DNA of 64,000 bases from Lota lota (Eukaryota > Chordata > Actinopteri > Gadiformes > Lotidae), in the NCBI GenBank assembly GCA_026745465.1, contig JACYXH010000722.1, positions 174,001-238,000 of the forward strand. Direction: 5' to 3'. The position numbers and the translations under genes are program-made. Under the pieces are notes generated by a model. The model had not been told where the DNA came from. It saw nothing but the letters and a program-made list of their open reading frames with translations, and searched no databases. This document shows, piece after piece, positions 1,835 to 26,589 of this stretch (its first letter is position 1; every line of letters begins with the position of its first letter).

Positions 1835-2143
1835 TTCAACGCGGCGGCCCGCCACCTGGTGGAGCTGGACAAGCCCTCGGACTCCGGCGGGGACTGGGCC
1901 GAGGGCCCGTCCCCGGGGGCCCACGGCGCCGGGGCTCCGCGGGGGGCCGGGGAGAAGAAGAACACGAAGAAGAGGCACTCCTTCACCTCCCTCACCATGT
2001 CCCACAAGCCCTCCCTGGCCCCGCCCCCCCAGCGCCACTCCATGGAGATCAGCGGGCCGGTCCTCATCAGCTCCTCCAACCCCACCGCCGCCGCGCGCAT
2101 CGGGGAGCTCAGCGGAGGGCTGTCCTGCAGCGCCCCCTCCCAG
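1835..2143 (+). CDS. sh3rf1: sh3rf1 coding exon (linker before SH3-3)
   Basis: The exon opens after CCTCCCAG with [16 protein letters not shown] and contains [45 protein letters not shown] and CSAPSQ. It ends in phase 0 at CAG before GTGAGA. This is the conserved basic and serine-rich block between SH3-2 and SH3-3 of POSH. Its donor site is the first copy of a 20-bp array in which the donor is repeated about 27 times. Confidence 0.93.
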
Positions 2144-25400: not shown

Positions 25401-26589
25401 GGTGGAGGTGCTGGAGGAGGACGGAGGACAGGGGCTGAGTGCGGGCCTGGTAGCCATCATCACCATCATGTCCATCATGGTGGTGCTGGTGGTGCTGGTG
25501 GTGGTCAGCCGGTCTGTGGGCTGCCTGAAGCCCCCGTTTGAGCGTCTGGACAACATGCCGCTGGTAGGGATGTCTCCTCTAGTGATAGAGCTCTGATGTC
25601 TCCTCTAGTGATAGAGCTCTGATGTCTCCTCTAGTGATAGAGCTCTGATGTCTCCTCTAGTGATAGAGCTCTGATGTCTCCTCTAGTGATAGAGCTCTGA
25701 TGTCTCCTCTAGTGATAGAGCTCTGATTCCTCTAGTGATAGAGCTCTGACGTCTCCTCTAGTGATAGAGCTCTGATGTCTCCTCTAGTGATAGAGCTCTG
25801 ATGTCTCCTCTAGTGATAGAGCTCTGATGTCTCCTCTAGTGATAGAGCTCTGATGTCTCCTCTAGTGATAGAGCTCTGATGTCTCCTCTAGTGATAGAGC
25901 TCTGATGTCTCCTCTAGTGATAGAGCTCTGATGTCTCCTCTAGTGATAGAGCTCTGATGTCTCCTCTAGTGATAGAGCTCTGATGTCTCCTCTAGTGATA
26001 GAGCTCTGATGTCTCCTCTAGTGATAGAGCTCTGATGTCTCCTCTAGTGATAGAGCTCTGATGTCTCCTCTAGTGATAGAGCTCTGATGTTTCCTCTAGT
26101 GATAGAGCTCTGATGTCTCCTCTAGTGATAGAGCTCTGATGTCTCCTCTAGTGATAGAGCTCTGATGTCTCCTCTAGTGATAGAGCTCTGATGTCTCCTC
26201 TAGTGATAGAGCTCTGATGTCTCCTCTAGTGATAGAGCTCTGATGTCACCTCTAGTGATAGAGCTCTGATGTCTCCTCTAGTGATAGAGCTCTGATGTTA
26301 AACCTGGTAAACCATGGGCTCCTTTCAACAGTTAGCTACGCAGCAGTGAGGTTAGGGCATCTTGTAAAGCTGAAGGATGACCGCTACAGAATTATGAATT
26401 AAGAATAATCATATTAGTAGTAACAATTACAGCATATTTAAGAGGGGACAGTAGAATTTCCTGCACAAAGGAATGTATCTTGTATCGTGTTTTTAACTCC
26501 AGTTTTTTGTTAATATTTGTTACGTTTTTTTCTTCTTCCAGGAGAGCCTGAATGAAGAATCACCGTTTGCACATAAATATTACAAATAA
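22325..26589 (+). CDS. mucin-like single-pass membrane protein, four exons
   Basis: Unrecognised gene. Exons 22325-22406, 24083-24535, 25382-25563 and 26542-26589 join in phase to 765 nt, 254 codons plus stop. It predicts a signal peptide (HVFIPILIFAASC), a Thr/Ser/Pro-rich ectodomain with a nine-residue tandem repeat (TSDLTSPPP), a membrane segment at about residues 200-220 (LVAIITIMSIMVVLVVLVVV) and a short tail with FERLDNMPL and an acidic ESLNEESPF. This layout is that of a small sialomucin-type adhesion or signalling protein. I cannot assign it to a named family and infer no function beyond that. The splice sites are inferred from phase and consensus; the exon 2 acceptor (CATAAG) is the least sure. 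Confidence 0.65.
22430..22680. repeat. GTAGTTAACATGTAGTTAAC minisatellite
   Basis: About 14 imperfect 16-20-bp units of TTGTAGTTAACATGTAGTTA, with many HpaI-like GTTAAC palindromes. Starts about 25 bases after the exon 1 donor. Confidence 0.88.
22683..23050. repeat. 19-bp CTCAGACCACATCCTGTAC repeat in higher-order units
   Basis: CTCAGACCACATCCTGTAC is repeated singly (19 bp) or with an inserted GCTACATGGATCAGTCTGGA (about 42 bp). Some 16 copies. Confidence 0.92.
23051..23400. other. unique intron sequence with one 81-bp-spaced direct repeat
   Basis: TCTACATCTTCAACTAGGAC followed by ACTGATTGGTTGATTACA occurs near 23271 and again near 23352. No other feature seen. Confidence 0.6.
23400..23740. 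repeat. 11-bp AGCTTGATGTA minisatellite
   Basis: About 27 copies of AGCTTGATGTA with degenerate TTGTAGCTTG copies. The minus frames (TSSYIKLQAT) are artefacts. Confidence 0.9.
23868..24062. repeat. CCTCTCTTCC-type pyrimidine tract
   Basis: About 190 bp of TCCTCTCTT/CTATCCTCT units, ending some 20 bases before the exon 2 acceptor of the mucin-like gene. Confidence 0.85.
24083..24535 (+). CDS. mucin-like gene exon 2 (Thr/Ser/Pro ectodomain)
   Basis: Reads (D)TTSTPISVSTTTKATIS to TLTPATSLPASETSP, then the nine-residue repeat and a Thr-rich end (TTTTLNTTLQTTSNTS). It is a dense candidate O-glycosylation region with several N-linked sequons (NLT, NTT, NTS). Phase 1 in and out. The acceptor is AAG; the donor GTTGGT is weak. 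Confidence 0.6.
24225..24440 (+). repeat. 27-bp coding VNTR, ~8 copies
   Basis: Units contain CCTCTGACCTGACCAGCCCT and then CCACCCA, encoding TSDLTSPPP with N-for-D and G-for-S variants. The N variant creates an NLT glycosylation sequon. Period 27 keeps the frame, as in mucin VNTRs. Confidence 0.92.
24536..24900. other. intron with degenerate ATGACATCACTG repeats
   Basis: About 24570-24830 holds some 12 spaced copies of TATGACATCAC in roughly 25-bp units, too diverged for a clear array. Confidence 0.6.
24910..25380. repeat. TGTTCTCCTCCTGTTCTCA minisatellite ending at an acceptor
   Basis: About 470 bp of TGTTCTCATGTTCTCCTCC units with a roughly 220-bp higher-order repeat (24950-25170 and 25165-25380 are near copies). 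The last unit forms the acceptor CTCTCCTCAG of exon 3. Confidence 0.92.
25382..25563 (+). CDS. mucin-like gene exon 3 (transmembrane)
   Basis: Reads (A)APPPTEVEVLEEDGGQGLS, then the membrane segment VAIITIMSIMVVLVVLVVV and SRSVGCLKPPFERLDNMPL. Phase 1 in, phase 0 out. The donor GTAGGG opens a 26-bp array. If unspliced, the frame ends VGMSPLVIEL-stop. Confidence 0.65.
25564..26297 (+). repeat. 26-bp minisatellite at a donor site, ~28 copies
   Basis: Highly uniform units contain TGATGTCTCCTCTAGTGATA and then GAGCTC. The first diverged unit contains the exon 3 donor (CTGGTAGGGATGTCTCCTCT). Confidence 0.95.
26542..26589 (+). CDS. mucin-like gene exon 4 (cytoplasmic tail end)
   Basis: After TTTTTTTCTTCTTCCAG, the codons ESLNEESPFAHKYYK and TAA follow in the phase left by exon 3. 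The strong acceptor and in-phase short tail support it. AATAAA at 26585-26590 overlaps the stop codon. Confidence 0.55.
   Translation, partial: ESLNEESPFAHKYYK

Follow-up and report, generated by a model that had tools for sequence, protein, structure and literature searches.

Genes of the window and arrays built from their splice junctions

This analysis concerns a 64,000-nucleotide stretch of the genome of the fish Lota lota (the window) and the minisatellites that lie at, across or beside the exon-intron edges of its genes. The window is part of a 372-kb contig (C722) in an assembly of 575 Mb and 867 contigs. It holds the last eight exons of a gene that we take to be sh3rf1 and five coding exons of what is presumably cbr4, both named after the human proteins. 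A small membrane gene of mucin-like type is also present, as are exons of a PDE4-like gene (donor at 62749) whose name is likewise our assumption. Exon edges throughout were placed from the sequence alone, and the reading frame is open across all eight sh3rf1 exons (with one donor set at 2927) and from end to end in cbr4. Among the window proteins Pfam identified two SH3 domains and one short-chain dehydrogenase (SDR) domain, with no usable match for the mucin-like gene, the N-terminal part of the PDE4-like gene (a short stretch) or the exon-like stretches at 31704-31752 and 36234-36448. Tandem Repeats Finder (TRF) returned 220 rows for the window, which merge into 104 arrays covering 67.9% of it.

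An initial annotation of this DNA had proposed that arrays at 2141, 8440, 9003, 11770 and 19255 are built from the splice junction itself, and both TRF and the anchored exon edges agree: five arrays, all on the forward strand and all in sh3rf1 and cbr4, have units that contain a splice junction, two of them a donor and three an acceptor. The share of the exon in these units had been put at 3-16 bases, whereas the measured values are 11-25.

The donor of sh3rf1 exon 1835-2143 is spanned by a minisatellite at 2133-2673 in which, according to TRF and a table of the copies, a 20-bp unit consisting of 11 exon bases followed by GTGAGACAY occurs 27 times; the first copy forms the exon edge and GT is present in 19 of the remaining 26. 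In most copies the sequence is CCCCTCCCAG|GTGAGA, where an end like that of an acceptor adjoins a donor, much as in a recursive splice site; if such a copy were spliced and the product then spliced again, the mRNA would be the same. Further along the gene, the acceptor of exon 8856-9026 lies in the last of 10 copies (x9.7 by TRF) of a 43-bp unit with 16 exon bases at 8454-8871. AG is kept in all nine upstream copies, and one exon base within the unit sets the flush copy apart from all nine others. Amplification has probably struck the region of this acceptor twice, because a second array at 8104-8407 on the same strand (a 47-bp unit, x6.5), which we read as older, is a diverged relative sharing an acceptor-like core; the two units align with a score of 32, compared with a mean of 12.6 and a maximum of 28 in 2000 shuffles. 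The donor of the same exon (9026) is spanned by a duplication at 9004-9122, where a 57-bp unit with 23 exon bases (x2.1) comprises the exon copy and just one more and is followed by an 11-bp array.

The largest of the acceptor-spanning arrays, at 11775-12704, ends in the last sh3rf1 exon (12690-12858) and consists of 26 copies of 33- or 39-bp units with 15 exon bases, the last copy being the exon edge and AG being kept in 24 of the 25 upstream copies. Its unit variants are ordered, with the 33-bp form first and then mostly the 39-bp form, which carries an extra CTAAC, a motif that by the consensus we take to be branch-point-like. Across the 15 shared exon bases the flush copy is identical to most of the others. 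All 25 upstream copies share one frame, and each of them, if used as acceptor, would reach a stop codon before the exon (in 14 cases within 17 codons and in 11 after 28-138), so that an uninterrupted protein results from the flush copy alone. The fifth case is in cbr4, where the acceptor of exon 19345-19479 is spanned at 19225-19369 by two copies only of a 75-bp unit (x1.9) with 25 exon bases.

Donor arrays of this kind begin with the flush copy and acceptor arrays end with it, and the decoy splice dinucleotides (AG or GT) are kept in 52 of 60 copies in the three largest of them. We infer that the arrays descend from the junctions, and not the reverse, because the exon part of their units is coding sequence that lies in open frames with SH3 and SDR domains. 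The flush copy is presumably the copy that is spliced. The idea that one copy is preserved by selection while expansion goes on freely towards the intron, which had been raised for these genes before, agrees with units derived from coding sequence and with an open protein that is available at 12690 from the flush copy alone.

Junction copies in other genes

Are such arrays a peculiarity of this window? To the window we added an external sample of 225 splice edges from 130 exon loci, the exons being Pfam matches of the kinesin, protein kinase, myosin head and aldehyde dehydrogenase families. Myosin and aldehyde dehydrogenase are represented by their highest-scoring matches and not by a random draw. 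Kinesin exons were chosen by rule (an internal match with no stop) among 79 listed kinesin rows, with one qualifying row (C659:1551943) left out and one myosin exon (L134) counted among the kinesins. For the kinases, 20 of 40 chosen rows were used, one likely duplicate having been left out beforehand. Two of the kinase exon matches, C479:89254-89472 and C707:76762-76980, have identical scores and lie near contig starts, and perhaps represent one locus assembled twice. From the 44 loci L003-L046, 14 were excluded as neighbours in the same cluster or gene. Also left out was L002 (G000:C249:1394422-1396452), where a myosin head lies in a single open frame of 1958 codons, apparently an intronless myosin heavy chain gene. 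Removal of edges that scored poorly as splice sites or lay at a profile end left 225 of 260; among the kinesins, several loci are adjacent exons belonging to a single gene, so the edges are not all independent.

At 11 of the 225 external edges the 22-mer across the junction was found again within 330 bp of its own intron, whereas mismatched pairs of junction and intron gave a mean of 0.45 such edges and a maximum of 2 in 20 shuffles. About one in twenty of the splice junctions sampled in this vertebrate genome has thus been tandemly multiplied. By eye, junction-derived copies are recognizable at a myosin acceptor (L016), at the donor as well as the acceptor of a kinesin exon (L070), at three further kinesin loci (L074, L118 and L108), at an aldehyde dehydrogenase acceptor (L036) and in a kinase gene (L136, with just two exon bases), while L085 and L093 carry diverged relic copies and L098, although counted among the 11, is close to simple GT-rich sequence. 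The splice dinucleotides are kept in 39 of 49 extra copies at eleven external edges (not quite the same eleven, L102 replacing L098) and are mostly lost in L085 (0/2) and L036 (1/6). With 52/60 copies intact in the window and 39/49 outside it, surplus splice sites are therefore tolerated and not regularly purged.

At the kinesin donor of L108 (G000:C567:341550-342417), a 45-bp unit made of 26 exon and 19 intron bases is present in eight copies with the frame open throughout. Every copy has a CAG|GTA donor and GT is kept in all seven extra copies. With an open frame and a unit length that is a multiple of 3, any of these donors would lengthen the protein by complete blocks of 15 residues, and L108 may be a variable-length exon. 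That junction arrays in general are live sources of isoform variation is an idea we entertain only with considerable doubt; if copy number did vary between individuals and the copies were used, thousands of splice junctions in this fish could be length-variable switches of splicing or of protein. In any case, such arrays form a natural test set for the choice that the spliceosome makes between nearly identical sites, since as many as 26 acceptors or 27 donors follow one another and one of them is flush with the exon, and they are raw material of the kind proposed for intron gain and exon extension.

Edge preference or tolerance

The initial annotation had counted more than 15 exon edges within about 30 bp of an array, and this stands: in the three genes that it considered 18 of 28 edges are so placed, and across the window 24 of 39 splice edges. 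It had also called for the distances of array ends from splice sites to be compared with positions randomized within introns. For the window this was done with 17 introns and their 34 edges under two null models, (a) a uniform re-partition of the free sequence of each intron and (b) a permutation of each intron's own gaps. An array lies within 30 bp of the edge in 23 of the 34 cases, against 13.4 expected under re-partition and 15.7 under gap permutation (p about 5e-5 for both), and within 10 bp in 17, against 6.5 (p about 5e-5) and 13.0 (p 0.008), respectively. Six edges are touched or overlapped (0 bp), against 1.4 under re-partition; under gap permutation the expectation for direct contact is 4.8 and the difference is not significant (p 0.22). 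Outside the window, an array reaches or crosses the edge in 9 of 225 cases (a count that includes L086 and excludes L108) and begins 1-10 bp away in 22. Starts in this interval are 8.2 times denser than those at 31-60 bp (22 in 2061 versus 7 in 5378 edge-bases, p 1e-7), and for minisatellites (unit of at least 10 bp) they are 5.7 times denser (10 versus 5, p 0.001). Array boundaries are therefore concentrated near splice sites, both within the window and, by start density, outside it, simple chance placement inside introns is ruled out by the within-intron nulls, and the observation of arrays at exon-intron edges is confirmed as real and as extending beyond three genes.

Does clustering of boundaries mean that exon edges attract duplication? 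Tests of edge distance, taken by themselves, suggested that they do. Array-end distances alone overstate seeding, however, where arrays are dense and exons act as barriers, and C722 is array-dense in all five samples taken from it (L050-L054, array fraction 0.43-0.83), whereas at exon-centred loci outside the window the share of arrays averages about 9-15%. In one set of 45 such loci, 44 are at an array fraction of 0.30 or less; loci L047-L054 were used for array density only. The profiles across the external junctions then changed our reading. The number of edges with a match in locally duplicated sequence is 6 in the bin from -15 to -6, 13 from -5 to 4, 14 from 5 to 14, 17 from 15 to 24 and 19 from 25 to 34, values that climb from the exon into the intron without a maximum at the border. 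Minisatellite coverage, at 0.027 (-10 to -1), 0.068 (0-9), 0.085 (10-19) and 0.119 (200-299), also has no junction peak and climbs slightly from +10 to +300 bp with overlapping intervals, donors and acceptors behaving alike here and in start density. In equal 40-bp windows there are 9 edge-spanning starts and 7 at 11-50 bp inside the intron (95% confidence interval of the ratio 0.43-4.06), and 7 of each when low-complexity units are removed, in a comparison that is post hoc, drops the L086 donor, adds L108 (filtered out earlier) and uses a low-complexity list chosen by eye. Within the window, 5 of 33 non-microsatellite edges are spanned, compared with about 10.7 expected if all spanning seeds had survived (mean unit 35 bp). 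The earlier statement that chance would rarely give such placement does not allow for a window that is 68% array, or for seeds that span a junction being about as frequent as others.

We consider it likely that array boundaries lie at exon edges because duplication is tolerated there, and not because it is attracted. Under such a scenario, frequent short tandem duplication with units of about 10-100 bp would hit coding and non-coding DNA alike. Within exons, selection would admit only units that keep the frame. In keeping with this, six arrays lie wholly within window exons (24226-24472, 9783-9821, 11593-11618, 25478-25503, 36344-36387 and 62570-62618), and the unit length is divisible by 3 in all of them, which we regard as a mark of selection. 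A duplication across the exon-intron border would be nearly free, because one copy stays flush with the exon, preserves it and is used, while further copies fall into the intron and may expand there. Junction-derived arrays would thus arise at about the per-base rate of other intronic arrays. Pyrimidine- or TG-rich arrays could also extend as far as the acceptor since they would serve as its tract. Border-spanning and tract-forming arrays together would pile boundaries up at exon edges with no preference in seeding.

What, then, is the origin of the excess at 1-10 bp? It seems to consist mostly of low-complexity arrays usable as splice signals and of junction-derived arrays that have decayed. 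Twelve of the 22 external cases have a unit shorter than 10 bp. Among the ten minisatellite cases, four are pyrimidine- or CA-rich (L089, L099, L113 and L043), three (the L036 acceptor and the L070 and L084 donors, L084 being the weakest) resemble junction units that have lost their exon or splice part through decay in the intron copies, and three stay without such an explanation. Microsatellite coverage is raised on the acceptor side only, where these repeats may act as pyrimidine tract, at 0.122 at 20-29 bp compared with 0.039 at 200-299 bp, and is flat at donors.

Several points weigh against mere tolerance. The window nulls, which allow for the free sequence of each intron, still leave an excess at the edges; the excess at 1-10 bp outside the window (5.7-fold for minisatellites and 8.2-fold for all arrays) departs from the constant rate that a model of uniform seeds predicts; and the seven assignments among the ten minisatellite cases were made by eye and not blind. 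When starts from -40 to 10 are pooled and compared with those from 11 to 60, the count is 19 versus 9 (p 0.087), and a modest, two-fold edge preference is therefore compatible with the data.

The first of the alternatives, which was also the one named first in the initial annotation, is that exon edges are preferred seeds of duplication, for example owing to features of sequence, chromatin or replication at the border. Beyond the crowding of boundaries within 10 bp of splice sites, both in the window (17/34 versus 6.5) and outside it (the ratio of 8.2), it can draw on the copy numbers, since minisatellites near an edge have no more copies than those farther away (median 2.8 versus 2.7 in 19 and 23 arrays, respectively) and near-edge arrays therefore need not be old ones that have grown up to the exon. 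Neither duplicated sequence nor minisatellite coverage peaks at the junction, however, the spanning and interior starts are about equal (with a confidence interval that allows up to about a 4-fold preference), and minisatellites treat donors and acceptors alike, so that we regard preferred seeding as unlikely. Could selection instead favour repeats near splice sites as splicing enhancers? Repeats have been proposed to act in this way in fish introns, and the coverage of microsatellites, which is about 3-fold higher at 20-29 bp from acceptors than at 200-299 bp, would agree with it. Enhancers would nevertheless not account for the flat microsatellite profile at donors or for minisatellite units bearing decoy sites, and we judge this explanation improbable.

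An origin linked to transcription or splicing, through R-loops or co-transcriptional collisions at splice sites, would likewise place arrays near such sites, and an R-loop- or replication-linked mechanism had been suggested for these genes. The nearness itself is the point in its favour. Minisatellites have no donor/acceptor asymmetry, though, on which ground we rejected an R-loop mechanism; the asymmetry of microsatellites, raised at acceptors only, reflects the composition of the pyrimidine tract; and C722 is array-dense wherever it was sampled, with arrays of 3n units in its exons as well. A mechanism of this type is accordingly very improbable. Finally, that the arrays are artefacts of assembly might be suspected from the short contig and the 867 pieces of the assembly but is scarcely credible and was rejected, since the ordered unit variants at 11775-12704 and the diverged relics of L085 and L093 are unlike misassembly and such arrays recur on other, longer contigs (C94, C567, C770 and C781).

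Related repeats and other arrays of the window

The closest known kind of repeat is the "mirage" of amphioxus, and what is unexpected here is its scale, about 5% of edges, in a fish. In the passages that describe them, mirages are tandem repeats across exon-intron boundaries, named in Adh3 and later reported in globin, troponin C and PGBD5 genes; they span the boundary at donors as well as acceptors, keep AG or GT in many units, and have units of 10-72 bp in Adh3 and 150-160 bp in BflGb6 (PMC3087553, PMC3902484). They are also reported to leave regular splicing undisturbed by RT-PCR, to be unstable in length between haplotypes and somatically, and to have an edge copy that stays apart from the homogenisation of the others; in this last respect the window arrays differ from one another, the flush copy being distinct by one exon base at 8454-8871 and matching most others over the shared exon bases at 11775-12704. 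The minisatellites of Lota lota are similar in that their units span the boundary (five in the window and at 11/225 external edges), in that both boundary types are involved (two donors and three acceptors in the window, and both edges of one exon in L070), and in that AG or GT is mostly kept in both samples. They differ from mirages, as far as these passages go, in their fish host, in units of mostly 20-80 bp with up to 26-27 copies, in being known from DNA sequence, and in their occurrence at 11 of 225 edges of exons that were not picked for repeats.

Two other systems share features with these arrays. Genes in human segmental duplications are described as containing internal minisatellites with units averaging 30 bp, some of which lie at exon-intron boundaries and can alter splicing (PMC2812944). 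In that account coding exons contain half of the repeats, and new introns can arise from the ones at boundaries, whereas the extra copies in Lota lota are intronic. Tandem genomic duplication of AGGT segments has been described as a source of introns in which splice signals are multiplied (PMC3443670), and tandem copying multiplies splice signals in Lota lota too. The junction units of Lota lota include intron bases, which does not match intron gain through an exonic AGGT duplication, and no case reveals a new intron. Our searches of the open literature turned up arrays of this kind under the name mirage for amphioxus only and, in addition, boundary repeats in the human segmental-duplication genes, while those directed at fish or teleosts listed no paper on such arrays.

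Codfish genomes are reported to be extremely rich in tandem repeats. Those reports centre on short units (1-10 or 1-50 bp), with no splice junctions in the passages concerned, unlike the junction arrays here. A search of the genome for MHC_I gave at least 100 exon matches, many of them clustered (C654, C823 and C169), and one for MHC_II_beta gave no match, although nothing was detected in controls either, so that this is not proof of absence. The abundance of MHC I together with the lack of a match to MHC II beta fits a codfish.

Further arrays of the window, all given for the forward strand, lie beside or at an exon edge. In cbr4, an array at 16968-18069 (found by TRF) begins 9 bp past the donor at 16958; exon 18549-18685 is preceded by a (TG)n acceptor tract at 18504-18546, which ends 2 bp from the acceptor, and is followed by an array at 18687-19235, which begins 1 bp past the donor; and the last exon has a CCT-rich array as its acceptor tract (19804-20107), also ending 2 bp from the acceptor. 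A pyrimidine-rich array at 24913-25379 stands in the same relation to the acceptor of exon 25382-25563 of the mucin-like gene, and the three together bear out the description of arrays as acceptor tracts at 18503, 20109 and 25380. The companion claim, that arrays start exactly at a donor or a stop codon, fared unevenly. It is correct for the (GTCT)n array at 19480-19711, which begins at the donor of cbr4 exon 19345-19479. The array at 20284-20675, with at least 18 copies around a ACATGTAGACC core, begins 8 bases before the end of the cbr4 coding sequence, includes the stop codon in its unit and extends into the 3' untranslated region. The claim fails at 25564, as the 26-bp array there (x28, 25569-26298) begins five bases past the donor at 25563 of the mucin-like gene. 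An array at 62760-63666 begins 10 bp past the donor of the PDE4-like gene.

The exon-like stretches 31704-31752 and 36234-36448 belong to one gene, and both of their donors lead directly into AC or GTCT repeats: an (AC)n array at 31755-32478 begins 2 bp past the donor at 31752, and a (GTCT)n-type array at 36449-36649 begins at the donor at 36448. A 41-bp minisatellite is present in three separate arrays on C722, at 28954-29917 in the window, at 2222-2764 in L052 and at 1039-1470 in L053, one of them inverted. The array in the window begins in the apparent tail of what we take to be a tRNA-derived short interspersed element (SINE), with a GGTTCGATCCCC box upstream at about 28895. Elsewhere on the contig, at 4675-4858 in L051, two adjoining 91-bp arrays contain one 22-bp unit in opposite orientations and together form a long potential hairpin.

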